Part shown: positions 2,390 to 24,499 of the stretch, piece by piece | How positions within the stretch are numbered: position 1 is the stretch's first letter | Layout of the letters: the number at the start of each line of letters is the position of its first letter | Virus record (IMG/VR): IMGVR_UViG_3300035698_013814 | Location: 1-24,543 of that record | Reading direction: 5' to 3' (one strand) | Source: a virus | DNA: 24,543 bases | The notes under the pieces: model-generated | The model's database searches: none | The model's input: the letters and a program-made list of their open reading frames with translations, nothing else | Told to the model about the DNA's origin: nothing | Program-made: the position numbers and the translations under genes

Positions 2390-3169
2390 TTAGACCTGTA
2401 TTCCACCGAGATTTATACTACCAGAACCACCAGCAGCAAGAGCGTCAAAGCTATCAACATCAACATAAGCCGTCCTTGAAGCCCCGCTTAGAGAACCCGA
2501 CCCGCTAGTTAAAGTCACGTTTGTCGGATCTATAACCGTATCCCAGACAACAAATTCATCGACAGAGTAATGGACGTTTCTGTTGGCATAATCAGCTCCT
2601 ATGAGAATATTGTGGCAACATCTTTGCTGGTTAGCATTGTATGTCGGAAGGCCCCTAGTCATGGTGTCCGTTAATTTCGCCACGCCATTAACATAAACTA
2701 TAAGCCCACCAGCACTTGTTGTGCCATCCCAAGCAACTACGATGTCAAAAAAAGCACCCGTAGTAATTCCACTTGATGCCGTAGTTCCGGAGTCCGTTTG
2801 CCCAGATTCGTTCCCAACAGTCGCTATGATTTCAGGAGTGTTGTTTATAGATAACCCTAGATAGTTTATCTGACTTCTCACTACCCCACCCATGCTAAAT
2901 AACGCTATAGTTGAAGAAAGACTAGCGAAATTAACCCGCATCAACACCGACCGCGTAACAGCAGCCGGAGTGTTTAAAATGCCTGTATAGTTTAATGTGC
3001 GAAATGTTAAAAAGCTTCCAACCATATCAATTGAGTTCACGCCATTAATTCCAGGCGTATCGGTGGTGACTTCAGGGGCTCCTTGCGGACCCATAATTCC
3101 TGGGCTTGCCCCATTGCTGGAATATCTAGCGTTTAAATCATCGCCTCTAACCGCAAAAGTAATAGCCAC
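2390..3169 (-). CDS. LamG/concanavalin-A-like lectin domain protein, probable virion surface or receptor-binding protein
   Basis: A 259-residue protein. The middle and C-terminal parts fit the laminin-G-like jelly roll: strand-rich FFDIVVAWDGTT, IVYVNGVAKL, and the terminal signature NVHYSVDEFVVWDTVIDPTNV at about residues 195-215. Phages use such domains in fibres, appendages or capsid decorations that touch glycans. The N-terminus has a short collagen-like stretch (GASPGIMGPQGAPEV), which could be a trimeric stem. Translation probably starts at GTG 3169, sharing a G with the stop of the upstream gene (TAGTG); only a weak GATGGG precedes it, so coupling is likely. The end (ALAAGGSGSINLGGIQV) is glycine-rich. 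The fold is fairly sure; the role is inferred. Confidence 0.75.
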   Translation of the reverse strand: MAITFAVRGDDLNARYSSNGASPGIMGPQGAPEVTTDTPGINGVNSIDMVGSFLTFRTLNYTGILNTPAAVTRSVLMRVNFASLSSTIALFSMGGVVRSQINYLGLSINNTPEIIATVGNESGQTDSGTTASSGITTGAFFDIVVAWDGTTSAGGLIVYVNGVAKLTDTMTRGLPTYNANQQRCCHNILIGADYANRNVHYSVDEFVVWDTVIDPTNVTLTSGSGSLSGASRTAYVDVDSFDALAAGGSGSINLGGIQV

Positions 3170-3742: not shown

Positions 3743-3766
3743 GGGACTCTCAAGGATTGAGGTCCC
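3743..3766. terminator. Hairpin at the convergent end of the lysis cassette and the lone + strand gene
   Basis: GGGAC (3743-3747), a bulged T, then CTCAA (3749-3753) pair with TTGAG (3757-3761) and GTCCC (3762-3766). This gives a ten-pair stem with a GGA loop. The outer base touches the endolysin TAG (3766-3768), so the hairpin sits directly after that gene and also about 26 bases after the + strand gene. Neither strand has a following T run, so it may end transcription poorly, or act in mRNA stability instead. Confidence 0.4.
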
Positions 3767-4155
3767 TAAAGCAATTCAAAATGGGGTAAATCAAAAAACG
3801 TTTGATCCTTAAGATCGTTATTTCCATCCCAGTCGCCACCCCATCTAATTTTTATATCCATTTCTGCAGCGATGCCTTTTATAATGCCAGCCATGTAAAC
3901 AAATCTCTCGCGATCATTCCAGTCCACAGGATATGGCACCACATCAACAGCCATCGATGGGATTTTATTATGCTTTGATCTAGGGTATTTTAATTTAGAT
4001 TTACCAGCGTGATAGGCTTTGTTCTGTTCAGCCTCACCGCGATGACCCTCTATTATAGAGCAGTCATAAACCTGAATTACTTTTAGAAATAATTTCTGCA
4101 AGTCAGGATGACACTCTCTCAAATTTTCTTTTGATCTCTCACTGAATTTGAACAC
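3766..4155 (-). CDS. M15-family (VanY/endopeptidase-like) metallopeptidase endolysin
   Basis: A 129-residue protein with the full signature of the Peptidase_M15_4 group used as phage endolysins. EGHRGEAEQN is at about residues 37-46 and RSKHNKIPSMAVDVVPYP at about 60-77. The zinc ligands His and Asp are expected in SKHN and AVD, and the final ligand His in DLPHFELL at the C-terminus, close to the catalytic Asp/Glu. Enzymes of this class cut peptide bonds in the peptidoglycan stem (L-Ala-D-Glu or cross-bridge), and there is no signal peptide, so a holin is needed for release. The start is GTG at 4155, inside the upstream gene (17-base overlap). The nearest purine-rich site (GAGG) is about 13 bases away, so translation probably depends on coupling. 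The exact bond cut cannot be read from sequence. Confidence 0.9.
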   Translation of the reverse strand: MFKFSERSKENLRECHPDLQKLFLKVIQVYDCSIIEGHRGEAEQNKAYHAGKSKLKYPRSKHNKIPSMAVDVVPYPVDWNDRERFVYMAGIIKGIAAEMDIKIRWGGDWDGNNDLKDQTFFDLPHFELL

Positions 4156-6752: not shown

Positions 6753-9700
6753 TTACTTAGTTCCTGGCTTGCCTGTAACTAGACCACGCACATAGTCAAC
6801 TGGTCCAGATGGCCTTGCTTTTCCTGTGTTCACATCTCTTTGATAAATAATTGGTTTGGCTAGTGGCCCTGTGGGTAGGCCCATAATAATACCGAACGCT
6901 GATAGTCCGTCTTTAATCTCTCTGTTCTTTATATCGCCGTCAGTGTATTCACCTTTAGTTGTATCACCCAGTGCCCGACCAATGACACCCACAGCCTCTG
7001 CTGCTGGAGATGCTCCAATCTTAGTCATATAAGGTTTACCACCAGTGGCTTGGCTATAAAAGGCAGCGCCACCAGCACCGATCACTGGCACCATGGCAAA
7101 TCCCAACTCAATCTGAGATCCAACAAATACCTCATAGAGATCATCAGAATACTTTCCATCATCATCCTCATCAAGATCACCGCTTGCCAGCTTACCGATG
7201 ATGGCTGAGATAATTGCAATAGGTGCATAGTTCATAAGGTATGAAAAGAAATATTCTTTATTCTTATCCTTAAGACTTAGATCAGAATAGTATATCTTTT
7301 GCAGAGCAGCAGAATTGAGATTGCCCATCTGTAAAAAGAAACTATAAAAGTTACTAAAAAAGTTTAGCATCTGACTAGTCTCAATTCCAGCAACATCAAA
7401 CGATCTCCTCGATGTTTGCGTTAAGCGTACATCTGAATCAGCTTTTCTAACAGCTTGCTTTTCAGTCTTACCATCAGCGATAGATCCATTATAAGACCCA
7501 AGCCATACGACATTATCGAGCTGGTTCTGAAACATTGACTGAGTCAAGTAGGCGTGACTAGTTCCCCAATCATTTACAGTCTTATAATTCTTAACTGCCT
7601 TCTCCACCTTAGTCGCCGCGACATCAAATATTTCTCTGGATGCTTTGTCGATTAAGTAAATTTGATCATCAGTCCTAGTCCTCATCGCCACTGATTTTTC
7701 AAGTATCATTTTAGATATCTCTCTTGGATTCTTTAAATACTCAGCATGAGCTTTAGCTAGATGAGCGCCACCTATTCTGTATTGAGCAGGGAAAACTCCA
7801 GCCACCTGCTCAGCTGTATTTTTAATATTGAAAAACATGAGCTGCATGATCGCATTTTGTCTCAAGCCATTAAGCAGCCCAGAGATGAGAGGCGAAAGTC
7901 TAGCGTCATCAGCATATATATTATCCTTATCAGCCCTGTTAAGAGAAGGCACTATAAGATCACTAACTACAGCTCTGTCTATATCTCCTATGATGTCTTT
8001 AAACTCTTGGTTGGTTGCAATCTTTGCAGCATCGATCACTGCTGGCTTAACCATGGCATACTTTAGCGCCTCCGATAAGTGGTTTCCAACAAGGCTAATA
8101 TTTAACATCAGCGGTTTATTGTAATTTTCCACACGATTCTTGGTTAATCCACTGCCACCAGCAGCAGGCCATGTAAAATTAGGGTTACTCTTTATGAACT
8201 GCTCAAGGTCTGCTCTCCTTGCCTGATCGGAAACTGCATAAGGATCGACCTTAGCTGGAGCGTACCCACCTTTATATGTTCCAAAAGGAGTTTTGAATTC
8301 GTTGGTTGTTATCTCATCAAAGAAATATCCATTGATTTTCTTATGAGCTTTCTGAGCCATGGGCTTAATTTCTTCCATCATATCCCAAACAGACTGGATA
8401 TAATCATAATCCTCTTTGGTCAGTACCTTTTCATCCCACATTCTTTGGATAAACTTATCCCACTTGGTCGAGACCAGCTCACCATTTTCATCAAGCGTCC
8501 CCCAGCCATAACCAATGACAAGTTTTTTCATGTTTGATTTATTTCCAGTATGAAGCAAGGCGCCAAGCAATTCGTACTTAGTTCTAAATCTAAAAGCCTT
8601 TCCCTCAAATTCTAGTTCTGGAGCTACGATCTCTTTTTCGTAGTCCTTCCTATTTTGAAAGGGCTCTGATAAATCCATTAATCTTTTTTTATACTTAGCT
8701 TTAGCCTCATGATAACGATCAAGAGCCTCACTCACTGGAGTCCACAGATAGGCTCTAAAAGGCCCGTCGATTTTACCCATATCCATGAGATCAATCCAGT
8801 TCTCAAGCCGTTTAAAAGATGCTTTTAGATTTAGGATCTTTGCTTGAAATTTATCATTCTTGCTAGCTGTTTCATTATATTTTTTCTGCTGTCCTTTTTT
8901 TCTAAAGACATTTAAATTCTTATTCATTTCGTCAACGGCTGATTTTATTGAAACCTTTTCCCCATCAATCTCAATCTCTTTCATGTCCTTGCTCAAATTC
9001 CACAGAGCCTCAAGGGATTGTCTGACATCCTCAAGCCTACTCTGAGTAATCTGTTTATAATCAGCGGCTTCATCCATAACACTTGTAACAAGACCAGCCA
9101 CAGTTTCATAAGCATCAGGATTATACTCTTTAATCTTAGCGATGTATTGCATGGGCTCTTTGTTTGATTTACCTAAGCCATACCTTGCCAGGACTGCTCT
9201 ACCTGCAGCAACCATATCCATGTCACGAGTCTTTGCTATTTTCTGATCGTTACCAAAAAACTTTTTAGCAAGCCTTTGAGTTTTACCAAAAGTTTCCTTG
9301 GCAGATTGAGCCTCTTTAAAGAGGTAGTAATTCAAAAGCTCTCTTTGTTTGGCCATCATCGCGCCCTCAAGATCACCCTTTGCTAAAAGCTTTCCAGCCT
9401 CTTTTGCATAACGTCTCTCAGATAAACGATATTGATTAGGCCTAATAGACCCAACAGCTGTATCTCCGATGAGTCTTTTTGCAAGAGCTCGCATATCAGA
9501 GTTGCTCGGTGGCCTGCTAGTTACTTTCCTAGTGATTTCGTTAGCAAGACCTTTGTGATTTGTAGCGATGTGCTCCATCTCTAATCTTAAACGCTTAGCT
9601 CTTGAATCATTATGGAGAGCATCCATTGCAGAACCTTCTAAAGACTCAGCCGTTTCTTCAGCAGCGAATTGCTCATCGGTCAAACGGTTCACTTCATTCT

Positions 9701-12700
9701 CAACAACTTGTTTCATAGTGGGCGCTGCGTTTATAGCTGTTACTAATTCACTTCCAGAATTAAAGCCAATGATCTCAGCGACTACATCAGTAGGCAAGCC
9801 ACCCTCATCAGCATACATCCCTCTAAATTTATCTGACCCATAGATTTCTGGGAAGGCAGCTTTAAAAGACTTGCGATCAAATTTTAATGGAGGTGCCCCG
9901 TCCTCAAGGTCCTTAGACTTAAGAGATTCAATGGCCTTGTAAAGTGGCTCCTCTCTAACAGTGTCCTCTATTCTTTTTCTATTTATCTTGGCCTGGATTT
10001 TCTTTCTTTTAAGAACGTCTTTTTCAGCCTTCTTTAAATGCTCCTCTTTTGCCTGAAGCAATGCTTCTTCCTGAGCGTCCCTGTATCTCTCTGAATTCTT
10101 TTTATTCATACCCATCGCCACAGGATCAACAAACATTGGAATGTCTGCCAACTCGTTTCGAGCCTCAGCGATTTCTTCTTCTGTTGCCAGCAGGCGATCC
10201 ATAATCCCTCTGATATCGTCATTGATTTCAACATCAAGTTGAGAGACACGCTTGTAAATATTTGTAAGCCAAACCTTGAAAGTATTAAAAGCTTTTCTCA
10301 TTGCAGCAGATGGAGATTTTCCCTCCCTCATGTAAGCTTCAAATCCTCTGGCCCATTTCTCATGGTGCTCGACCTTGATCTGATCAGCAGACTCCACACC
10401 AAGCCATTTCAACACGCCTTGAAAGTCCTCTTTTAAAAGAGGTGTTGCTTTAGGATCGTCACTAAAAGATCTCATCATCTCCAGAAATAAATGTCCCGAC
10501 TCGTGAATAAAAGTTGATTTATCAGCGCCCTTAAAAAGATCAATAGTCACTTTGTTATTTGGAGCAAATGATATACGCCCACGGTTTTCTTGGTATAGCT
10601 CCTGCCCCTCATTCAAGATTGTTTCTTTCATCTTGTCTGTGATTGGTAGAGTGTAGTCTTGGTATTTGGTGCCTTCAATGTCATATCTGGATTCGACAGC
10701 GCCACCCTCTAGAGATTCTGCTTCAACAGAAACATCCTGTATTGGCCAATCATCAGCAGTGGTTTCTGGATTTTCCTCAACCAACCTCTCGACAGCCGCC
10801 TCAGCCTCATCACTAGTATTGTGTATTTCTTGGACATCATTCTCGCCAGCCCAGACTCTCCATATATAACCATCGGCATCGCCAGTTAATTCATTCCCCT
10901 CAAACTCTACGCTGGCATTAGATAAAACAACCTCTTCAATAGGCAGAACATTCTCTTGTAAAAACGAGAGTAACTCTTCTTTGGATACTTTCTTCTTACC
11001 CTCAAGAAACTGTTCGATGCCTGACCACTCGATCTCATCTGACTTGGATTCTTTTATAATAGCTCGGACCTGCTCGACCGTGGCAGAATTTCCCATCTTA
11101 GACTCAATGGATTTTTCCATCTTAGAATAAAATGCAGGAGCCTCTTCTTTTGAAATCTTTGGTTGATTAAAAACCTGGCCACCGCTTGGTGTTTCGGCAT
11201 CTTTAATCTCTTGAATGTTTAGATCAAACCTCTCAGCGACCTCTTCAAAAGTATAGCCCAAGTTTTTTGCAAACGTGTTGTAAGTGCTAACCACATGCTC
11301 AGCCTCTATCGGGTCTCTGCCTGCAGCCTTTAGCTGAGTGACTAACTTTTCTTTAAAAACTTTCTCAGCCTCGATGTCCTTGTCTCTTTTCTTCTTTTCA
11401 ATCTTAGCCTCAGCTGCCAACTGATCGATATCTCCAGGAATATTATTAATGACTTCCCTAGCCTCAGCCACAGTCTGCCCATCAGGTAACGTGCGAACGA
11501 TCTGCATAACCTCAGCATAATCCTGACGTTTCTCACCCATGACTTTTAAAAAATCTTTTAATTTAACCTCAACGGTCTGGCCACTCTGAGCAGAATCATC
11601 ATAGCTTTCCATGGCTAGGAATTCCTCAGCTTTTTCCACAGGACTAATGCCCTTGGATTGCCACATCTCATCCCACTCTTCTTTTTGAAAAAACACAGCC
11701 TGATTGTCATCAGCGTTTGAATGCTCTACAAATTCCGAGAACACCTCTGGATTGCGCTCTCTTAGTTTTGACTTCTCTGCATTGGCCACCATCTGATCAA
11801 GTGCTTGTAAACTCGATACAGACTCCTGAGCCGTTTGCACGTTAGTTAATAAATCGTCAGCTTTTTCTGTAAACGTTTGAGGAGATGGATATTTGTCATT
11901 AACACTTTTGATTTTGTCTTTTACTTTTCCAGCGATCTTTTCTTTAGCCGTATCGACGCCAGGAGTTTTTGATAATATCTTTTTCCCACCGCCAACTATA
12001 ACTGACTCAGCAGCCGAGTGACCCATGGAAACAAAACCCTCCATAAGAACTTCTGTGAAATCAATCTGATGTAAGTTACCACGAGCAGCCGCTTGACCTG
12101 CAGCCTCACTCAAGGACTCACCAGTCATTTGTATTGCAACGTCAGTCGTGGCAGCAACGGCTTTCTTGGCCACACCTTTACCGACCTTGGCCAGCTGTCC
12201 ACCAGCAACGGCTGAAAACAAGCCATCCACTGCAGCCGTGGCGATACCTTTTCTAGCAGCCTCTTTTCTGATCTCAGTCATTAGGGCTTTATCACTGTAG
12301 GCTTTCTTTAAACTGTCCACATCAGCGACATCATAACCACGCTCGGTCATAGCCTGGTTAATCCAAGCGCCAGTCTCGACAGCAGCTGATCCAGAAAATG
12401 TCCCTAAAACAGTTCCACCAACATAACCAGCTCCTGCTCCAAACGGCCCACCACCAGCGCCCACTGCAGCCCCTGCAAGCCCTGTCACTTGCCCTTGAAC
12501 TAATGCTGGTAAACTAAACGCAGCACTTTCAGTCGAGGCTCTAAACAAACCCTTGGGCCTTCTAATTGTTTCTTGCAAGAGATCTAAAAGCTCAGCAGCA
12601 GTTCCGATCTTACCCTTACTATGCTCGATAAAACCGTCTATGATCTTGCCTTCTCTAGCCATATCAAGGCCTGCCTTGGTACGCTTATGAGCCTTGACTA

Positions 12701-13295
12701 TATCGCCAGCTTCCCTTTGAAACATTTCTGTGAATTCTTTAGCGTACTCAGGAATTCTCTCTTGTCGCTCTCTTATTTTTTTATTTCTCTCAGCAATCAT
12801 CGGCAAGACTTCATCCTGATTACCGTAACCAAACGTCAAACCAAGGTGCAAACCACTAGCTCCTAGCTGGTCAACCCCTGTATCCCAAGCCTCTCCGAGA
12901 TCACGCTTGTAAGATGGCCCATCATTATAAGCCCGAATACGACCAGTGTCCTTTTCGATCTTACTCAACGTGTCCAGATCATCTCGAGAAACACTGGCCC
13001 TATTCGGGTCCTGAAGCCAAGCGCCTAATCGGGGGGATCTTGCAGCAGCAGCCTCAAATCCCATATCGGCATTGAGCTCTTTTTTCTTAAAGCTCTCCAG
13101 GTTTCTCTCTGCAAATTCCACTGGCACATTGTATTTCTTTGAAATATTAAAAGCTTCAGATGTTTGCTCAGGGTTTTTCTTCTTAACAACAAACTGAGAT
13201 TGCTTTAACGCCTGAGTCTTTGGGTCCAGAACGCTATCAAATTTTGATGGTTCTTTTTTTGGCTCTGGAAAAAGGCTGTCGAATTTACTTTCCAT
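6753..13295 (-). CDS. Giant internal virion (DNA ejection) protein with HExxH zincin-like site and LPD38-like C-terminus
   Basis: 2180 residues, by far the largest gene here. It lies third after two proteins of gp14 and gp15 type, the place of the T7 gp16 ejection protein. Residues about 250-315 are Gly/Ala-rich and hydrophobic (VTGLAGAAVGAGGGPFGAG), suited to membrane insertion. HESGH at residues 931-935 (codon for H931 at 10505-10503) and a downstream HEKWARGFEAY with Glu 986 match the zinc site of gluzincin-type domains seen in phage polyvalent proteins. Long charged coiled coils fill much of the middle. The last about 350 residues, with hydrophobic segments near 2020 and 2065, resemble the LPD38 large polyvalent protein domain. 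ATG at 13295 follows AAAGGGG and overlaps the upstream gene by 11 bases. The protease activity is inference. Confidence 0.8.
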   Translation of the reverse strand: MESKFDSLFPEPKKEPSKFDSVLDPKTQALKQSQFVVKKKNPEQTSEAFNISKKYNVPVEFAERNLESFKKKELNADMGFEAAAARSPRLGAWLQDPNRASVSRDDLDTLSKIEKDTGRIRAYNDGPSYKRDLGEAWDTGVDQLGASGLHLGLTFGYGNQDEVLPMIAERNKKIRERQERIPEYAKEFTEMFQREAGDIVKAHKRTKAGLDMAREGKIIDGFIEHSKGKIGTAAELLDLLQETIRRPKGLFRASTESAAFSLPALVQGQVTGLAGAAVGAGGGPFGAGAGYVGGTVLGTFSGSAAVETGAWINQAMTERGYDVADVDSLKKAYSDKALMTEIRKEAARKGIATAAVDGLFSAVAGGQLAKVGKGVAKKAVAATTDVAIQMTGESLSEAAGQAAARGNLHQIDFTEVLMEGFVSMGHSAAESVIVGGGKKILSKTPGVDTAKEKIAGKVKDKIKSVNDKYPSPQTFTEKADDLLTNVQTAQESVSSLQALDQMVANAEKSKLRERNPEVFSEFVEHSNADDNQAVFFQKEEWDEMWQSKGISPVEKAEEFLAMESYDDSAQSGQTVEVKLKDFLKVMGEKRQDYAEVMQIVRTLPDGQTVAEAREVINNIPGDIDQLAAEAKIEKKKRDKDIEAEKVFKEKLVTQLKAAGRDPIEAEHVVSTYNTFAKNLGYTFEEVAERFDLNIQEIKDAETPSGGQVFNQPKISKEEAPAFYSKMEKSIESKMGNSATVEQVRAIIKESKSDEIEWSGIEQFLEGKKKVSKEELLSFLQENVLPIEEVVLSNASVEFEGNELTGDADGYIWRVWAGENDVQEIHNTSDEAEAAVERLVEENPETTADDWPIQDVSVEAESLEGGAVESRYDIEGTKYQDYTLPITDKMKETILNEGQELYQENRGRISFAPNNKVTIDLFKGADKSTFIHESGHLFLEMMRSFSDDPKATPLLKEDFQGVLKWLGVESADQIKVEHHEKWARGFEAYMREGKSPSAAMRKAFNTFKVWLTNIYKRVSQLDVEINDDIRGIMDRLLATEEEIAEARNELADIPMFVDPVAMGMNKKNSERYRDAQEEALLQAKEEHLKKAEKDVLKRKKIQAKINRKRIEDTVREEPLYKAIESLKSKDLEDGAPPLKFDRKSFKAAFPEIYGSDKFRGMYADEGGLPTDVVAEIIGFNSGSELVTAINAAPTMKQVVENEVNRLTDEQFAAEETAESLEGSAMDALHNDSRAKRLRLEMEHIATNHKGLANEITRKVTSRPPSNSDMRALAKRLIGDTAVGSIRPNQYRLSERRYAKEAGKLLAKGDLEGAMMAKQRELLNYYLFKEAQSAKETFGKTQRLAKKFFGNDQKIAKTRDMDMVAAGRAVLARYGLGKSNKEPMQYIAKIKEYNPDAYETVAGLVTSVMDEAADYKQITQSRLEDVRQSLEALWNLSKDMKEIEIDGEKVSIKSAVDEMNKNLNVFRKKGQQKKYNETASKNDKFQAKILNLKASFKRLENWIDLMDMGKIDGPFRAYLWTPVSEALDRYHEAKAKYKKRLMDLSEPFQNRKDYEKEIVAPELEFEGKAFRFRTKYELLGALLHTGNKSNMKKLVIGYGWGTLDENGELVSTKWDKFIQRMWDEKVLTKEDYDYIQSVWDMMEEIKPMAQKAHKKINGYFFDEITTNEFKTPFGTYKGGYAPAKVDPYAVSDQARRADLEQFIKSNPNFTWPAAGGSGLTKNRVENYNKPLMLNISLVGNHLSEALKYAMVKPAVIDAAKIATNQEFKDIIGDIDRAVVSDLIVPSLNRADKDNIYADDARLSPLISGLLNGLRQNAIMQLMFFNIKNTAEQVAGVFPAQYRIGGAHLAKAHAEYLKNPREISKMILEKSVAMRTRTDDQIYLIDKASREIFDVAATKVEKAVKNYKTVNDWGTSHAYLTQSMFQNQLDNVVWLGSYNGSIADGKTEKQAVRKADSDVRLTQTSRRSFDVAGIETSQMLNFFSNFYSFFLQMGNLNSAALQKIYYSDLSLKDKNKEYFFSYLMNYAPIAIISAIIGKLASGDLDEDDDGKYSDDLYEVFVGSQIELGFAMVPVIGAGGAAFYSQATGGKPYMTKIGASPAAEAVGVIGRALGDTTKGEYTDGDIKNREIKDGLSAFGIIMGLPTGPLAKPIIYQRDVNTGKARPSGPVDYVRGLVTGKPGTK

Positions 13296-14949
13296 TTCGT
13301 TGCCCCTTTAACCATGTCGCATAAGCCTCTGTAACAGCCTCATCACTGCTGTCCCTACCATTAGCTTCAAGAACTCTCTTAAGCTCAAGCCTATCGTCAG
13401 TAGGGATGTTTTCAAATCTAACAATCATCTCATCACCTGGCTCGACTTCAAACAGTCGTTTCTCAGTATCCCAGAACCAACCTTTTTGAGTGACTACTTT
13501 AAACATTAAGTTATCAGCTAAGTCCTGGACCTCAGCATTCGTGACTTCTTTTCCCGTGGCGCTTTGTTGCTGAACAACTAGCTCATCAAGTTTCTTTCTA
13601 AAAAGAGGGACACTCGCATCTTTTTTATCTATACCAGCCTCTTGTAAGACACCAGTAACAATCTGGCTATGAGTTTGAATTCCATCAAGCAATTTATCTT
13701 TACCTTTTTTAGACTCAGACTGCAGGTTGATGAGTGTTTTCTTTTCAGCATTGCCTAGCTTATCAAAATATTCAGGGAGATTTAATCTCTTAAATTCATC
13801 CCTAGTGGCAGAGTTTCCTGCCATCATTTTCAAATTGTAATAAGTATCCCAGTCTGTCTGACCAGTTCCATATTTAATATCATTAGCAATCTTTTTTAAT
13901 TTCTCTTTTTTATCAGGCTCCATCTCTGCCCACTGAGCACGAGGGATCGACTCTAGGACACCGCCAGTTTTTTCAAGCACATCATAGGCTGAATTAAACG
14001 ACTGCCTGCTTTCATGAATCTCGGCAAGCTTGTTGTCAGCGTAACGATTCTTCAAACGCCTGGTAGCCTCATCTCTTTTCTCAGTGTCTTTAATCTTGGC
14101 CACTTCTTTAATAGCCTTGCCCATGTCATCAGGATATTTGTTAAAAATCTTATCACTGGCAAACTGTGAATCGCGATCAATGAGCCCCTCTTTTAGAGCC
14201 TTATCAAGATCAATGCGGTCCTCTCCAGTAACTTCATCTCTATACTTGGCATAATACTGCTGAGCAGATGTGATACCGCCACTATTTAGAATCTTACTGA
14301 ATACTGATTTATGAGTCTTGCTCTGAGTATCCTCAAGCAATCTATCTGTGGACTCTTGGCTTAAGCCATTTCTATCAGCGTGAGATAATATAGCGCCCTT
14401 CATTCGATCCATAGACAATTTAATTCTCTCAGGATCATGCGCGTTTTCAATAGCTGCGTTAATCTCGTTTGAAACATAATCTTTAGTAACTTGATCATCA
14501 TAAGTTTTAGTTTCTTTTGAAACATGTCTTTGTATCTGCTTATCAACATGACCACGCCTGTTGCCAAGCATCTTTTGAAAGCTCATCCTTTGAAAATCGT
14601 TAGATAAGCCCTCTCCAATTTCCCCGGCACGAGCGTCAAAGTCAGGGAGCTCAGTATCGGGCAGGGCAAAAGAATACTTGCCACGAGAATTCATCGCTCC
14701 AGTTTTAGGGTCATATAACATCGAGGTTTCAAGGGCAGACAACTTTTGGTCTGCATCCATGATGGCCAGCTGATCAGCTTTTTTTTGCTCAGCCTCCTCC
14801 AACTTATTTCTATAATTATTTAATTCGTCAGCAGCCCTTTGAGTCTGTCTTGCAGCTCTTGGATCATTAGTCTGCTGAGTCTGAATTCGACCCATCTTTA
14901 ATGGCTGTTGTGAAACTCTGTTCCTATCGAGCGTTGGGACTTTTGGCAT
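13285..14949 (-). CDS. Internal virion protein, T7 gp15-like position (554 aa)
   Basis: A 554-residue, highly charged, mostly helical protein. The N-terminus MPKVPTLDRNRVSQQPL followed by a basic Gln/Arg-rich region and a coiled coil (RAADELNNYRNKLEEAEQKKAD) is typical of the second internal virion protein of BPP-1/T7-type podophages. These proteins leave the capsid with the DNA and build the ejection conduit. I see no enzyme motif and no lytic transglycosylase signature. ATG at 14949 shares an A with the stop of the upstream gene (TAATG) and has AAAGGA nearby. The role is inferred from order and composition more than from motifs. Confidence 0.75.
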   Translation of the reverse strand: MPKVPTLDRNRVSQQPLKMGRIQTQQTNDPRAARQTQRAADELNNYRNKLEEAEQKKADQLAIMDADQKLSALETSMLYDPKTGAMNSRGKYSFALPDTELPDFDARAGEIGEGLSNDFQRMSFQKMLGNRRGHVDKQIQRHVSKETKTYDDQVTKDYVSNEINAAIENAHDPERIKLSMDRMKGAILSHADRNGLSQESTDRLLEDTQSKTHKSVFSKILNSGGITSAQQYYAKYRDEVTGEDRIDLDKALKEGLIDRDSQFASDKIFNKYPDDMGKAIKEVAKIKDTEKRDEATRRLKNRYADNKLAEIHESRQSFNSAYDVLEKTGGVLESIPRAQWAEMEPDKKEKLKKIANDIKYGTGQTDWDTYYNLKMMAGNSATRDEFKRLNLPEYFDKLGNAEKKTLINLQSESKKGKDKLLDGIQTHSQIVTGVLQEAGIDKKDASVPLFRKKLDELVVQQQSATGKEVTNAEVQDLADNLMFKVVTQKGWFWDTEKRLFEVEPGDEMIVRFENIPTDDRLELKRVLEANGRDSSDEAVTEAYATWLKGQRNGK

Positions 14950-15548
14950 TATGCAGTCCTTTCGATCATTCTTTGAGTTTCATAAGTGGCTGGATCGTAA
15001 TTTTGCGCGACCTTCTTTTCCACCTCTTTAGGCTCACTCGAATTTGATTTAAAATTTCTATAAGACTCACTAGCTTGCCTAGAAAACCTCAAGGCACCAG
15101 TGATCAATGTTGAATCAGCCGCTTGATTAGCTCTGTTTTTTGCAGCCAACCCTCCAGCTCTTGAATTAAAAGCGTCCTGCTGTAAGCCAAACGATTTTCT
15201 CCAGGCATTGTTTCTGATAGTTCTTTGCTCATCCTGGCCAAGTTCAATGGTTTGCTTCCTAACGGCTAGAGCTGTGCCTGAATCCACCTTAATATTCCCA
15301 CCTGCAAACGCTGCCTTTTGCTTGCCAACCAGTTGATTGATCTGCTTACCATGTTCGCCTGCTTCCTTGTCGCCAGCAGAAATTACTTCCTTAGCTTCCA
15401 TCTCTGCAAATCTTGCATTCATCTCACCAATCTTGGCAGCGTAATCACCTTGAGCTCTCATCGCATTTGATTGAGCAACGCCTGAAACCATACCACCCAG
15501 CGATGTTGCAAAGTCTACTCCGAAACTAACATTCTTATTGTATTCCAT
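14949..15548 (-). CDS. Virion core protein, T7 gp14-like (199 aa)
   Basis: 199 residues with the features of the T7 gp14 virion core family. A short hydrophobic Gly-rich segment at the N-terminus (VDFATSLGGMVSGVAQS) is followed by an Ala/Gln/Met-rich helix (NARFAEMEAKEVISAG). The middle has AAFAGGNIKVDSGTALAV, a frequently seen motif of this family. The protein is expected to form the outer-membrane part of the ejection channel. The ATG at 15548 directly follows the stop of the nozzle gene, with GAAGGG upstream. Three consecutive internal virion genes (199, 554 and 2180 residues) mirror T7 gp14, gp15 and gp16. Confidence 0.8.
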   Translation of the reverse strand: MEYNKNVSFGVDFATSLGGMVSGVAQSNAMRAQGDYAAKIGEMNARFAEMEAKEVISAGDKEAGEHGKQINQLVGKQKAAFAGGNIKVDSGTALAVRKQTIELGQDEQRTIRNNAWRKSFGLQQDAFNSRAGGLAAKNRANQAADSTLITGALRFSRQASESYRNFKSNSSEPKEVEKKVAQNYDPATYETQRMIERTA

Positions 15549-18206
15549 TTATTTACCCTTCTTTATTGGATATTGCCCAGTCGGTGCAATTGCTAAGACT
15601 GAGGCTGGCAATGGGTCAACTTGTCTTATAAAAACTCTGCCGTTATTATTCCACTGAGCCTTGATCAAACTTTCCATCGGGCCTGTATTCAAAGCAATTG
15701 GAGATTCATAACCTTCTGAATTTCTCATCTTTAACTCACTCAAGCCCTCAAGTGGATCAAGAGCATCATCACTAGGAGGCTCTGATCCAGCCCATAGACC
15801 TCGAGTCTCTTCAGTCATTAAGGAGATCTCACCGCTATTTTTAAACTTATTGAGTAAAGTCTCAGCGTTAGTGACATCGATATCAAGTGTTTCGATGTCA
15901 CTAGTAAAAGGAATTCCAACATGGATCACAGCATAGCACTTATCTAAAGTTACATAAGCACTGTCCACAGTGATAGTGTCATAGGCTGTATTATTAGGAC
16001 TTGCCACAACAAACCCATCACCCAATACAGACACTGACCTTCCCTCAAGATGAAGCAATCCAGAAACTACCTTAACAGCCTTTGACCAATTTGTTGTCGC
16101 TGTGGCTTGCAGTCCCACAGGAACAGTCTTATGAGGCTTGCCAGTGACTACTGTCGCTGAGCTGTAGGTATCAATCGACATCCTAATAATGTCGCCATCA
16201 GTATCAGTTAAATGGATTTCGCTACCAACATCATCAGCAATAAAATAACTAGTGCTAGATGTAATTGTCAGAGTCTCATCATAAGTCCAGTCAGTTCCAC
16301 CAGACAGAGTCATAGTCGCTGTTCCTGTGTTTCTGCCGTCATAGGTAACGCTGCCATCTAAAAATTTAGAGTCAGCAACAGATGTGTATTCTCTAGTGGA
16401 CATTCTTTCCACTGCTACCTTTGTAGCAGCGTCACCCTCAACATTTGTGTAATCCCTTGAGACCAACATATAAACGTAGTCCTCGCCCTGCTCTGAGATA
16501 CTAACAGTGTCACTTACAATGGCACCTTCCATATCATGTCTAGACCAAGCCACCATAGATTGCTCTCTTAAATAAGTAAGGCATAAAAGAGTCCCATCAC
16601 TTCTAGCAGCCCAAACATTTGAATGTGGCACCTGCTGATAGGTCCAGCGGTTGATATCGTAACCATCAAAAAGATGTGAACTAAAAAGTGTCAGATCATT
16701 TCCCTTATACCCATCACTCTGGAAGTCATACCCGAAATCTCTAACGATAGACCCTCTAGCTTGAACGTATAAACATGAGTTTGTAATAACTAGAGGTGGA
16801 ACACTACTCGCTCCATTATAAGATTGCTGCTTTAGATTTAATGTTGTTGGAGTCAATACCCCAAGGTCTGACCCTTCGAGTGTCCACTCGCCACTGGTTG
16901 TAAACATAACCAATCGACCGATATCAACAATATGTTTTATGTTCTGGATCTGCCTGCCAGAAATCTCAAAGACAATTGAATCGTCAGCCTGTATAGGGTA
17001 TTTAATACTGAAATTTTTAAAGTGGCCAGTACGACTCATGAATACTTTTTCTGGATTGTTATTTGTAGCAGCCAAGATCAATCGCTGCTGAAAGTATGCC
17101 ACCACTCCAGGAACTTTATTAACCCCGACAAAATACCCAGGGTTTGTCGGTGGCGTTTTGCTAAAGTCAGGGCTGACACCAATATCAACAAAGCGACCTT
17201 TTGCTGCGTTACTAGGGTCAACGTAACCAACGCCCACTAGCCCAAAGTTATTGGTTTGGTCATCGGCTCGGAAAACATTATATTGATCGGCACCAGACAC
17301 TACATTCCAAGAGACAGTACCCTTGTTAGTGAGACTTATTGGAGCATTTGAGCTCGTTACTGACGCTGTTCCTGGCAGTGACTCCTCAAATCCAGGGTAG
17401 CTAATAGCCGTCACATTCCATGTATAATAATCTACAGCTCCTCCAGCGATAGTGCCAGAGATACTAGTCGGAGCTGTCACACTAGGTGCAAAACTTATTG
17501 TAGCTTTAGCCCAACTCGTGTCACTAGTCCTAGTGATTTCAATCGGATCATTGTCAGGATGCACTATAGTTAAAACATTTTCTTTTTGTGCAAACTGAAT
17601 ATCAGGGAGTGATGCGTTTATAATACCTGTCGCAAGTTCATAAATCTTAGCAGCAGTTCCACCACTCAGAGACTCAGTCCATAGAGGAGTGTCAATAGTT
17701 CCACCATAAAAAGTCTCCTGGAGCTGTAAAATATTAACATCCACCACAGTCACATTATAATAATTTCCATTAACTCTAAAGCCCTCTGAAACTCCCGATA
17801 TATATATTTGATCACCAGTGGAATAACCATGGCCAGCGATTGTTATTCGTGCAAACGTCACACCATAATTCCAATTAGTTATTGTCTTGGCAGATTGCAA
17901 AACAGGAGCGCCCTCTTTATGAACACGCATGTATCCAGCTTTCGAAATCAAGGCACCACCACCGAATTCTAAAACGCAGCTTGACGTTGCATCGATCTGA
18001 AAAGGTATGAGTCGGATTTCGCCTAGTTCAAAACCACAGTGAGCAGAATACTCTGTCCCCGGCCTGTTCTGAGCACCACCATGCCTCATGATAAAAAAGT
18101 TTCTGCAAGTTCTTAAGCCTGTTTGATACTTATAGAAATCCACTCTTGAATAAAGAGCAGGCGTTATCTCACCACTGGCAAAACTTCTTTGGATTAACGT
18201 TGACAC
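15549..18206 (-). CDS. Tail nozzle or stabilisation protein (T7 gp12-like role) with FCCH-like and Fn3-like inserts
   Basis: 885 residues. The N-terminus (SFASGEITPALYSRVDFYKY, then NFFIMRHGGAQNRPGTEY) is diagnostic of a podophage tail protein family that closes the tail tube. An FCCH-like insert follows at about residues 118-163 (ITIAGHGYSTGDQIYISG), often annotated by resemblance to ubiquitin-activating enzymes; here it is only a small beta domain with no such activity implied. A fibronectin-III-like domain follows at about 244-345, then a long beta-rich region with MVAWSRHDM. Translation starts at GTG 18206 immediately after the staple stop (TAAGTG), with GGAGG upstream. It lies after the adaptor and staple genes, as expected for the nozzle. 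A strong inverted repeat lies within its 3' part. Confidence 0.85.
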   Translation of the reverse strand: MSTLIQRSFASGEITPALYSRVDFYKYQTGLRTCRNFFIMRHGGAQNRPGTEYSAHCGFELGEIRLIPFQIDATSSCVLEFGGGALISKAGYMRVHKEGAPVLQSAKTITNWNYGVTFARITIAGHGYSTGDQIYISGVSEGFRVNGNYYNVTVVDVNILQLQETFYGGTIDTPLWTESLSGGTAAKIYELATGIINASLPDIQFAQKENVLTIVHPDNDPIEITRTSDTSWAKATISFAPSVTAPTSISGTIAGGAVDYYTWNVTAISYPGFEESLPGTASVTSSNAPISLTNKGTVSWNVVSGADQYNVFRADDQTNNFGLVGVGYVDPSNAAKGRFVDIGVSPDFSKTPPTNPGYFVGVNKVPGVVAYFQQRLILAATNNNPEKVFMSRTGHFKNFSIKYPIQADDSIVFEISGRQIQNIKHIVDIGRLVMFTTSGEWTLEGSDLGVLTPTTLNLKQQSYNGASSVPPLVITNSCLYVQARGSIVRDFGYDFQSDGYKGNDLTLFSSHLFDGYDINRWTYQQVPHSNVWAARSDGTLLCLTYLREQSMVAWSRHDMEGAIVSDTVSISEQGEDYVYMLVSRDYTNVEGDAATKVAVERMSTREYTSVADSKFLDGSVTYDGRNTGTATMTLSGGTDWTYDETLTITSSTSYFIADDVGSEIHLTDTDGDIIRMSIDTYSSATVVTGKPHKTVPVGLQATATTNWSKAVKVVSGLLHLEGRSVSVLGDGFVVASPNNTAYDTITVDSAYVTLDKCYAVIHVGIPFTSDIETLDIDVTNAETLLNKFKNSGEISLMTEETRGLWAGSEPPSDDALDPLEGLSELKMRNSEGYESPIALNTGPMESLIKAQWNNNGRVFIRQVDPLPASVLAIAPTGQYPIKKGK
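15869..15903. repeat. Perfect 12-bp inverted repeat inside the nozzle gene
   Basis: TAGTGACATCGA (15869-15880) and TCGATGTCACTA (15892-15903) are exact reverse complements separated by 11 bases. On the coding strand it spans the codons for TSDIETLDIDVTN. There is no T tract after it. It may fold in mRNA, bind a protein, or be a by-product of the repeated Asp-Ile codons. Confidence 0.7.
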
Positions 18207-19397: not shown

Positions 19398-19832
19398 TTA
19401 GCTAATAGTGAAACCACTTGCATAACTCTCGTACTTACTAATATCAGTAGTGATAAAAGAAGTAAAAGACCCAGCGCTCAAGTTTCCACCTGCTACAGTG
19501 TAAGCAACGTTTATGTACTGATACTGCAATGGGGCAGAACCAGGATCAAGCTTTGCATACTTAACCGTACCAGCTGCAGATAACGCAGGAAAAACATAAA
19601 GATCCTGCGTAGCATCTGGAGTGATGGTGGTAGTCGAGTCACCTTGCAAGGCAACAGTGATTGTTGAATCAGACCCAGTGTCAGCCATAGTCACATCACA
19701 AACAGTAACCATGTACAAAGTCTCACCAGTACCAATATCGCGAGCGATACCAGCATCAATGATGTTTGTTGAGTCAGCTGAAGCTGTAACAGCCTGAGCG
19801 TCACTTAGTAATAATTTTGCATCTACATACAT
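19398..19832 (-). CDS. Bbp16-like capsid cement (decoration) protein (144 aa)
   Basis: 144 residues, beta-rich, Thr/Ala/Asp-rich, with MYVDAKLLLSDAQAVTASADS as the N-terminal signature and ARDIGTGETLYMVTVCDVTM following. This fits the Bbp16 family, found directly after the major capsid gene in BPP-1-type phages, where it decorates and stabilises the head. A strong AAAAGGAG site precedes the ATG at 19832, as expected for a high-copy protein. It lies 18 bases after the capsid gene. Confidence 0.85.
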   Translation of the reverse strand: MYVDAKLLLSDAQAVTASADSTNIIDAGIARDIGTGETLYMVTVCDVTMADTGSDSTITVALQGDSTTTITPDATQDLYVFPALSAAGTVKYAKLDPGSAPLQYQYINVAYTVAGGNLSAGSFTSFITTDISKYESYASGFTIS

Positions 19833-23660: not shown

Positions 23661-23987
23661 CTAGACTCCTAGCAATGTTTTGCCGGATTTTGTCGCTCCG
23701 AGCTGCTTAACAGCGCCTGGATCACCAGCGCCACCTGTTGCTAAAGTTCCACCAGCTGTCGGCCCATCAGATTCGGCTGGCCCAGATTGCTGCTTAGAAT
23801 AAGCCGAATCACGAGCAGACTCAGCCTTCTCTTTAGCCTTTTGATTTTTCTTTTTGACATCCATCTCTGATTTCTGTCGGTCGGCTGCTTGACCAGCCTG
23901 CCTTGATTGCTCAGCTGCTTGCTCACCCTGATGGATCGATGCACCTGTTGCCACTGCAGCCACTACTGCTGACGTTACTACTGCCAT
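23661..23987 (-). CDS. Small Ala/Gln/Lys-rich protein upstream of portal (108 aa)
   Basis: 108 residues. A short hydrophobic start (AVVTSAVVAAVATGASI) is followed by a helical coiled-coil region rich in Gln, Ala and Lys, then a Gly-rich stretch (TAGGTLATGGAGDPGAVKQL), ending GKTLLGV. It resembles small virion-associated proteins that some podophages encode next to the portal. I do not know a function. The ATG at 23987 overlaps the stop of the acetyltransferase gene, and GGAGG precedes it at good spacing. An overlapping frame on the same strand (23741-23944) is a shadow. Confidence 0.7.
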   Translation of the reverse strand: MAVVTSAVVAAVATGASIHQGEQAAEQSRQAGQAADRQKSEMDVKKKNQKAKEKAESARDSAYSKQQSGPAESDGPTAGGTLATGGAGDPGAVKQLGATKSGKTLLGV

Positions 23988-24442
23988 TAAATTACCTCCA
24001 GAACGAATGCGGTTTCTTTCTTCTTAAACCCTCGACTTAAAAAAACACGCTCATCAATTGGCGTGTCATCTTCTATTGTCATATAAATTAAATCAACATT
24101 GTTCTTTCCCCAAGACTCATAAGTCTCGAGTAGTTCAAGACCAATTCCAGTCTTTCTATAGTCCTTGCCGACCCACCAAAAAGCCTCAGCCAACGTTTTA
24201 ATGTCTGGATTATAAATGTGATCACAAACGTAACCTGCAATAAAACCAACTATGCTCTGGCAATCATCAGTAACAGCAACATAAAAGAGATGATTCTCGA
24301 TCATGTTCTTTAAAACTTTAGAACTAGTTTCCTGGTCTTTATACGGGGGGTATTCCGTGGAATAATCGTCTGAGAATTGTTTGAGATGAACACATAATTG
24401 ATCAATATCATCAACCATAGCCTCTCTAATTTGATACGACAT
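23987..24442 (-). CDS. GNAT-family N-acetyltransferase
   Basis: 151 residues from ATG 24442, which has a strong GGAGGGGA site; the frame runs open to a GTG at 24472 without a ribosome site, so the shorter start is preferred. The fold is clear: the acetyl-CoA loop RKTGIG (R-x-x-G-x-G) lies at about residues 109-114, in KDYRKTGIGLELLETYESWG, followed by the usual beta strand (LIYMTIED) and FLSRGFKKKETAFVLEVI. The enzyme transfers acetyl groups from acetyl-CoA to an unknown amine. Phage GNATs near the portal have been seen repeatedly but their targets are not known; modification of a virion or host protein are both possible. Confidence 0.85.
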   Translation of the reverse strand: MSYQIREAMVDDIDQLCVHLKQFSDDYSTEYPPYKDQETSSKVLKNMIENHLFYVAVTDDCQSIVGFIAGYVCDHIYNPDIKTLAEAFWWVGKDYRKTGIGLELLETYESWGKNNVDLIYMTIEDDTPIDERVFLSRGFKKKETAFVLEVI

Positions 24443-24450
24443 TCCCCTCC
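24443..24450 (-). promoter_or_regulatory. Ribosome binding site deciding the acetyltransferase start
   Basis: GGAGGGGA on the - strand abuts the ATG at 24442 (about three bases between GGAGG and ATG). The alternative GTG at 24472 has no comparable site. Confidence 0.6.
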
Positions 24451-24470
24451 AAATTGTTTGGTAACAGTTC

Positions 24471-24499
24471 ACTATCGTTATATTTATAAATTAAATCAA
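24471..24499 (-). promoter_or_regulatory. Weak candidate promoter for the late virion operon
   Basis: TTGATT (24499-24494) and GATAGT (24476-24471) on the - strand are 17 bases apart. Each matches the sigma70 consensus at four of six positions, in an AT-rich leader before the acetyltransferase gene. Related ACGAT or ATCGT boxes surround it. The window ends about 45 bases further on, so a stronger promoter may lie outside. Confidence 0.25.

Follow-up and report, generated by a model that had tools for sequence, protein, structure and literature searches.

The virus record IMGVR_UViG_3300035698_013814 is a stretch of 24,543 nucleotides, analysed here at its full length and called the window below, whose minus strand bears the structural cassette of a short-tailed phage. 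A large open reading frame (ORF) of this cassette, at 6753–13295, starts with ATG and encodes a protein of 2180 amino acids; the plus strand of the same interval is full of stops. The protein contains a zincin-like domain whose site is real, conserved, and probably catalytic. As judged from its relatives, the protein is built as a fixed chassis, consisting of a conserved module near the N-terminus (N-module), the zincin, and a helical C-terminal half (C-half), with a single variable site for cargo directly before the zincin. Our best reading, which we hold tentatively, is that the zincin is a self-processing peptidase of an ejection protein. The motif, and the idea that such a domain may act on the host, on the virion, or on itself, are already in print for this kind of protein. 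What is new is this member and the quantified fixed chassis, and the zincin's fixed place in the delivery machine is a more useful finding than its presence.

The ORF is the third gene of the ejection cassette, behind a gp14-like and a gp15-like gene, in the order tail tube, gp14-like, gp15-like, large ORF, tail fibre. This order supports an earlier note on the same DNA, made from the sequence alone, which had placed the protein like T7 gp16. We take the product to be the third, gp16-like ejection protein of a podophage resembling BPP-1, packaging and ejection being assigned by analogy. In a phage collection, 43 records match the protein, each at below 60% identity, and Bbp10 of Bordetella phage BPP-1 is among them; most of the listed matches begin near residue 900, where the zincin starts.

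The earlier note had recognized the spacing of a zinc site in HESGH (residues 931–935) and a downstream Glu, E986, which falls within HEKWARGFEAY (residues 978–988). HESGH is the only HExxH among 26 scanned ORFs of the window. Because 49 of 2000 shuffles of the 2180-residue protein contain some HExxH, the motif alone is weak evidence, and it is conservation that sets the site apart from chance. In an alignment of 12 proteins (the window and 11 phage records), H931, E932, H935, E979, E986, and Y988 never vary, and 11 of the proteins have H978. The comparison was then widened by a domain search, which gave 160 loci, namely the best 80 from viral contigs and the best 80 from bacterial contigs; 161 loci were examined in all, and one (L013) had no zincin ORF. 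H931, E932, and H935 are present in 160 of the 160 relatives, E979 in 159 (one Asp), E986 in 159 (Leu in L050), and H978 in 157, which bears out the earlier observation. The constancy does not come from the way the loci were chosen: HExxH is found in all 80 bacterial-genome loci, which were searched without using that motif, and in 8 of 8 viral loci without the first search pattern, and among loci without a pattern containing or adjoining E986, Glu is kept there in 37 of the 38 viral ones and in all 23 bacterial ones. L050 keeps E979 although its E986 is Leu. The third zinc ligand may be E979 instead of E986; both are candidates, and E979 is at least as constant.

A zincin fold of residues 887–1037 is likely, short of proof. 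A structure search with a model of the whole C-half hardly probes the zincin, hence a separate zincin-only model was made with AlphaFold2 (residues 880–1072, 115-row alignment, mean predicted local distance difference test (pLDDT) 85.8). The model has a helix at 887–896, strands at 900–902, 906–910, and 916–920, a helix at 926–946 with HExxH, a further helix, and a helix at 975–990 with E979 and E986. HExxH thus sits on a predicted helix right after the strand sheet, as the zincin fold requires. In a VIA-align comparison, ranks 1–5 are all anthrax lethal factor, Z 4.5 to 3.1, and the next row is unrelated (Z 2.8); the five entries are one protein and count once. The order of core elements in the model is that of the fold proposed in the earlier note, and a solved zincin does top the list, at low Z (4.5 at most). 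The likeness to the lethal factor protease domain extends over about 100 residues and carries no sign of a common target. Pfam MPTase families do not match the window domain at an expectation value (E) of 1 or below. A sequence link to zincins of the PDB was considered and rejected, as the Spartan and FtsH matches are not significant and rank below an unrelated penicillin acylase.

Two published groups of zincins come closest to the window domain. The family CLCA_X was named in a 2013 survey, with residues 700–1000 of Bbp10 as one seed (PMC3650047). The window domain is homologous to this seed region (42% identity to the BPP-1 row of the 12-row alignment; HExxH at position 797 of Bbp10). It departs from the consensus HExxHxxxD (PMC3650047), having Glu at 939; among 115 rows the position is Glu in 104 and Asp in 5, and the invariant Glu residues of the window family lie 44–51 residues downstream. 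By sequence, then, the window domain is related to CLCA_X through homology to a seed and not through membership by motif, Bbp10 itself being counted in by PMC3650047. The CLCA_X passages of that survey do not mention an ejection role. The second group is that of the polyvalent proteins, in which zincins are the commonest domain and N4 virion RNA polymerase (vRNAP) is among the carriers (PMC5512222, 2017). Polyvalent MPTases, published in 12 clades, have the same core order as the window model, namely an N-terminal helix, three strands, the HExxH helix, and the Glu helix (PMC5512222), and ART, PBECR, and other domains accompany the zincin there as well as in the window family; the main text of that paper names BPP-1 0 times. 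The earlier note's reading of a zincin-type domain in a polyvalent, gp16-like ejection protein is supported.

The chassis was quantified on the loci with an intact protein. A full C-half is lacking in 30 of the 160 loci, and exclusion of 19 more, which begin at a contig end, reduces the other 130 to 111. The N-module is present in 102 of these (9 lack it) and ends 551–903 residues from the ORF start (median 640). From zincin start to ORF end the median is 1269 residues, with extremes of 531 (L078, at a contig end) and 1474. The distance from N-module to zincin, in contrast, runs from 1 to 2229 residues (median 302, 102 loci). Since this gap varies so widely between flanks of near-constant length, almost all of the size variation lies at one place, directly before the zincin. 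The zincin itself is part of the chassis and not of the cargo, because it is kept in 160 of 160 relatives and also in the 12 of 12 members with 40 or fewer residues in the gap, in which both His, the Glu of HExxH, E979, and E986 are all retained.

The variable site carries domains of many kinds. Pfam scans of N-halves, from which near-duplicates were excluded, found ART-PolyVal, PBECR nucleases, LPD3, MuF_C, GGDEF, RadC, and GNAT in 26 proteins, and ART-PolyVal, LPD3, PBECR5, Zeta toxin, ddrB-ParB, Polbeta, and others in 40; both scans include the window protein as a row, and the counts come without positions. When the stretch from about the N-module end to the zincin was scanned in 10 proteins, matches at E ≤ 0.001 appeared in 5 (two to GNAT and one each to ART-PolyVal, Zeta toxin, and Phage_L5_gp82). 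In L041, for example, the Zeta toxin match ends about 60 residues ahead of the zincin stretch. PADLOC gave no match on 12 homologues. The window phage has its cargo reduced to a remnant: 26 residues (853–878) stand in place of 492 (857–1348) in the closest relative, L022, and local matches show that the start of the L022 cargo is shared. A global alignment of the region with L022 was misaligned and was not used.

A few loci depart from this arrangement. In L170 (7158–14119) and L171 (2397–10996), the N-module and the zincin with the C-half are encoded by two ORFs that overlap in different frames, which is consistent with halves that are able to work apart and could be a natural split. In two symbiont genomes (L132:9599–13642 and L139:9773–13639), proteins of zincin and C-half occur with no N-module found in the locus. 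The zincin is also present in long ORFs without most of the C-half profile (L118, L126, L070, L128, and L176); it therefore also travels outside the chassis. PQ492659.1 (L003), Limnohabitans phage DC33, has a taxonomy line of Inoviridae despite a tailed-phage cassette of this kind.

It is from the place of the zincin that a function may be reasoned. During or after ejection, the zincin would cleave the chain of which it is a part, either at the junction immediately ahead of it or close by. The N-module, with whatever cargo there is, would thereby come apart from the C-half, for which the analogy of T7 gp16 suggests a seat in the inner membrane. Such a cut would free the cargo into the cell and help to dismantle the channel. 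In the window phage, whose cargo is nearly gone, what is left for the zincin to do would be to process the ejection protein itself. We favour self-processing because the zincin is in the fixed chassis and not in the swapped cargo slot. Published proposals for polyvalent-protein zincins comprise self-processing before packaging or after injection, and host-protein targets, and self-processing is proposed for P1 DdrB too (PMC5512222).

Several points weigh against self-processing. A conserved HExxH need not imply proteolysis, and the best VIA-align Z for the zincin domain is low. Foldseek found no match in the PDB at E ≤ 0.001 for either the zincin-only or the C-half model, and sequence profiles of the zincin against PDB zincins gave nothing significant (Spartan E 0.84, FtsH E 0.97). 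N4 vRNAP carries a domain of this kind and enters the virion uncut (PMC5512222). No report of cleavage in the window family was found in the literature covered, mostly outside subscription journals, nor anything on this family as an ejectosome protease. Release of cargo alone is an insufficient purpose, because cargo-free members keep the site. Finally, the split ORFs of L170 and L171 could be sequencing frameshifts.

The same evidence bears on three other readings. The zincin may enter with the ejection protein and cut a bacterial protein, for instance of the inner membrane or cytoplasm, thereby aiding infection. Structurally it comes nearest to a secreted toxin's protease domain, the neighbouring slot clearly carries effector-type domains, and polyvalent-protein zincins have been proposed as possible effectors (PMC5512222). 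A host-directed effector is nevertheless unlikely: effectors here are swapped, whereas the zincin stays unswapped in a fixed chassis among 160 relatives of many hosts, and its substrate would have to be common to all of them. We think it quite improbable that the zincin acts before or during virion assembly, trimming its own protein or the two internal partners ahead of packaging. P1 DdrB is reported to be processed before packaging (PMC5512222), and the fixed position in the chassis fits such a role as well, but the unprocessed packaging of N4 vRNAP speaks against it and no cleaved product is known in the window family. Equally improbable in our view is a non-proteolytic role, in which the zinc site or the zincin fold would serve folding, packing, or a change of shape on ejection. 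L050, with E986L in an otherwise conserved protein, would fit this; E932, however, is invariant in 160 of 160, the corresponding Glu is the general base of zincins (PMC5512222), and a structural site would not need it.

The earlier note, going by eye, had found a lytic transglycosylase motif in none of the three internal virion proteins and had left the opening of the cell wall unexplained by the usual enzyme, a point raised alongside the zincin. The absence is confirmed, the three proteins giving no Pfam match to a muralytic family at E ≤ 1. In relatives, the gp15-like protein holds a transglycosylase between two conserved flanks, and bbp11 of BPP-1 is annotated so. The stretch between the flanks in 86 relatives falls into an empty state (67–147 residues, 35 relatives) and a filled state (187–554 residues, 51 relatives), the threshold of 160 residues having been chosen after the two groups had been seen. 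A transglycosylase profile matches within the slot in 22 of the 51 filled and in 0 of the 35 empty cases, and the window has the empty state. Other gp15-like proteins carry M23, GH108, Phage_lysozyme2, CHAP, or M15 (9 family matches, 55 proteins). A FastTree tree of 71 C-halves, from which near-duplicates were excluded, requires at least 17 switches between the two states, and the slot therefore changes often. Two of the 35 empty-slot loci have the profile elsewhere, in a separate ORF (L033) or at the start of the gp16-like protein (L161). The latter ORF, L161:7217–13801, matches at residues 4–113, the place of this domain in T7 gp16. The window protein has no such N-terminal transglycosylase and has a zincin and a cargo slot instead. 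The idea that empty-slot phages carry larger cargo was rejected, since their median of 411 residues against 302 is not significant (p = 0.09).

The absence of a transglycosylase from these proteins of the window phage is real and ordinary. P22 and Sf6 have no virion peptidoglycan hydrolase, T7 depends on its own in certain conditions only, and homologues of gp16 and gp15 are known to exchange muralytic domains (PMC8954989); a missing hydrolase is therefore no puzzle. In phiM1, a lysozyme-like domain is in the gp15-like protein (PMC11440229). Nor is a link between the zincin and this absence supported: the zincin occurs beside gp15-like proteins that have a transglycosylase, a different muralytic domain, or neither. 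That it opens the wall as a peptidoglycan endopeptidase would suit the empty slot of the window phage, but among the 111 loci, 21 of which have no recognised gp15-like neighbour, it is equally present beside gp15-like proteins with a transglycosylase match (25 loci), long ones without a match (39), and short ones (26). We reject this substitution on account of that even distribution and consider it extremely improbable. LPD22 was likewise rejected as a muralytic domain, since it occurs both with and without a transglycosylase. In Pfam scans of five and of ten proteins of the 24.5 kb fragment, the only muralytic match is an M15-type endolysin at 3766–4155 (E 0.0031, below the Pfam cut-off; PHROG 465 endolysin, E 2.4e-43). 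The gp15-like protein itself has a PHROG label of 'endolysin', which was set aside as carried over from relatives: residues 1–272 match positions 1–279 of a profile of 700 positions, and the catalytic part lies outside the match.

Sequence comparison of the window protein to PDB chains of the T7 gp16 and phiM1 proteins gave no match. They have in common the gene position and hydrophobic segments near the C-terminal end, and may have in common the fold of residues 1495–1872. The AlphaFold2 model of residues 880–2075 (mean pLDDT 85.4, predicted template modelling score 0.77) is nearly all helical. VIA-align ranks the phiM1 ejectosome protein first (Z 6.2, 220 aligned residues) and T7 core protein third (Z 5.9, 222 aligned), both over the same stretch of the model, 616–993/994; row 2 is an unrelated match of 51 residues (Z 6.1). 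Such Z values are below the level at which Z alone proves a relationship and can arise by chance for helical proteins, but it is suggestive of a shared fold that, out of 350,542 chains, ejectosome proteins come out on top. The model reaches E ≤ 0.001 with 86 entries of BFVD; in the 50 that are listed, identity goes down to 10–14%, and several are named after cargo domains. The chassis is therefore wider than the sequence family.

N4 vRNAP (9pnt) is row 14 for the C-half, Z 3.9. Its C-terminal domain (C1 with HExxH, C2 helical; PMC12633501) gives the same order of payload, zincin, and about 1,100 helical residues, its payload being an RNA polymerase, unlike the window family. For a sequence link, profile–profile comparison found no similarity (probability 0.4%, shallow profiles of 12 and 7 rows). 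It is possible, if speculative, that T7 gp16, N4 vRNAP, and the window family share one ejection chassis with a helical C-half in the inner membrane. N4 and the window family would further share a zincin in front of it and a payload before the zincin; on this view the N4 RNA polymerase would count as a further cargo, and the zincin as a common device of release or dismantling.

How the ejectosome closes or comes apart after DNA entry, as it must, is an open question (PMC12633501). A putative protease built into the chassis and kept even without cargo is a testable candidate for this step. The fixed chassis with one slot also provides a rule for finding injected phage proteins: read between N-module and zincin.

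Features of the window discussed in the text. All lie on the minus strand; residues are those of the encoded protein.
Feature	Position	Strand	Basis
gp16-like ejection protein, 2180 aa	6753..13295	-	PHROG 9880 (unknown function) E 4e-303; homologous to Bbp10 of BPP-1 and others
LPD22 domain, residues 34-119, start of fixed N-module	12939..13196	-	Pfam PF18834 E 2.4e-17; in 11/12 homologues, window included
Second conserved N-module block, residues 497-696	11208..11807	-	Iterated profile E 5.9e-38 on window protein
Cargo slot, residues 697-886, with only a remnant of L022-type cargo	10638..11207	-	N-module-to-zincin gap in 102 loci; comparison with L022
Zincin-like domain, residues 887-1037	10185..10637	-	AlphaFold2 model, fold neighbours, conservation
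HESGH, residues 931-935	10491..10505	-	H931/E932/H935 in 160/160 relatives
H978-E986, second active-site helix; candidate third ligands E979 and E986	10338..10364	-	Each Glu 159/160; helix 975-990 (AlphaFold2)
Helical C-half, residues 1038-2180, near-constant length in relatives	6756..10184	-	>1000 of 1270 profile columns in 130/160 loci
C-half part resembling phiM1 ejectosome protein and T7 core protein, residues 1495-1872	7680..8813	-	VIA-align
Hydrophobic segment, residues 2016-2034	7194..7250	-	Kyte-Doolittle scan
Hydrophobic segment, residues 2056-2074	7074..7130	-	Kyte-Doolittle scan
gp15-like ejection protein, 554 aa	13285..14949	-	Flank profiles at 1-246 (E 1.6e-66) and 321-543 (E 4.9e-57)
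Empty muralytic slot of gp15-like protein, residues 247-320 (74 aa)	13990..14211	-	Flank comparison, 86 relatives
gp14-like internal virion protein	14949..15548	-	PHROG 418 E 6.6e-22
Tail tubular protein	15549..18206	-	PHROG 376 E 3e-180

The genes of the minus-strand cassette are those for portal, major head protein, a Bbp16-like protein, tail proteins, the gp14-, gp15-, and gp16-like internal proteins, tail fibre, and endolysin. The Bbp16 homologue at 19398–19832 (minus strand, Pfam E 5.5e-16) ties the head module to BPP-1. A stand-alone GNAT acetyltransferase lies beside the portal gene at 23987–24472 (minus strand, Pfam E 5.1e-11), GNAT being a cargo type in relatives too. Near the lysis genes, a Laminin-G-like lectin domain is present at 2390–3169 on the minus strand (Pfam Laminin_G_3, E 1e-9).

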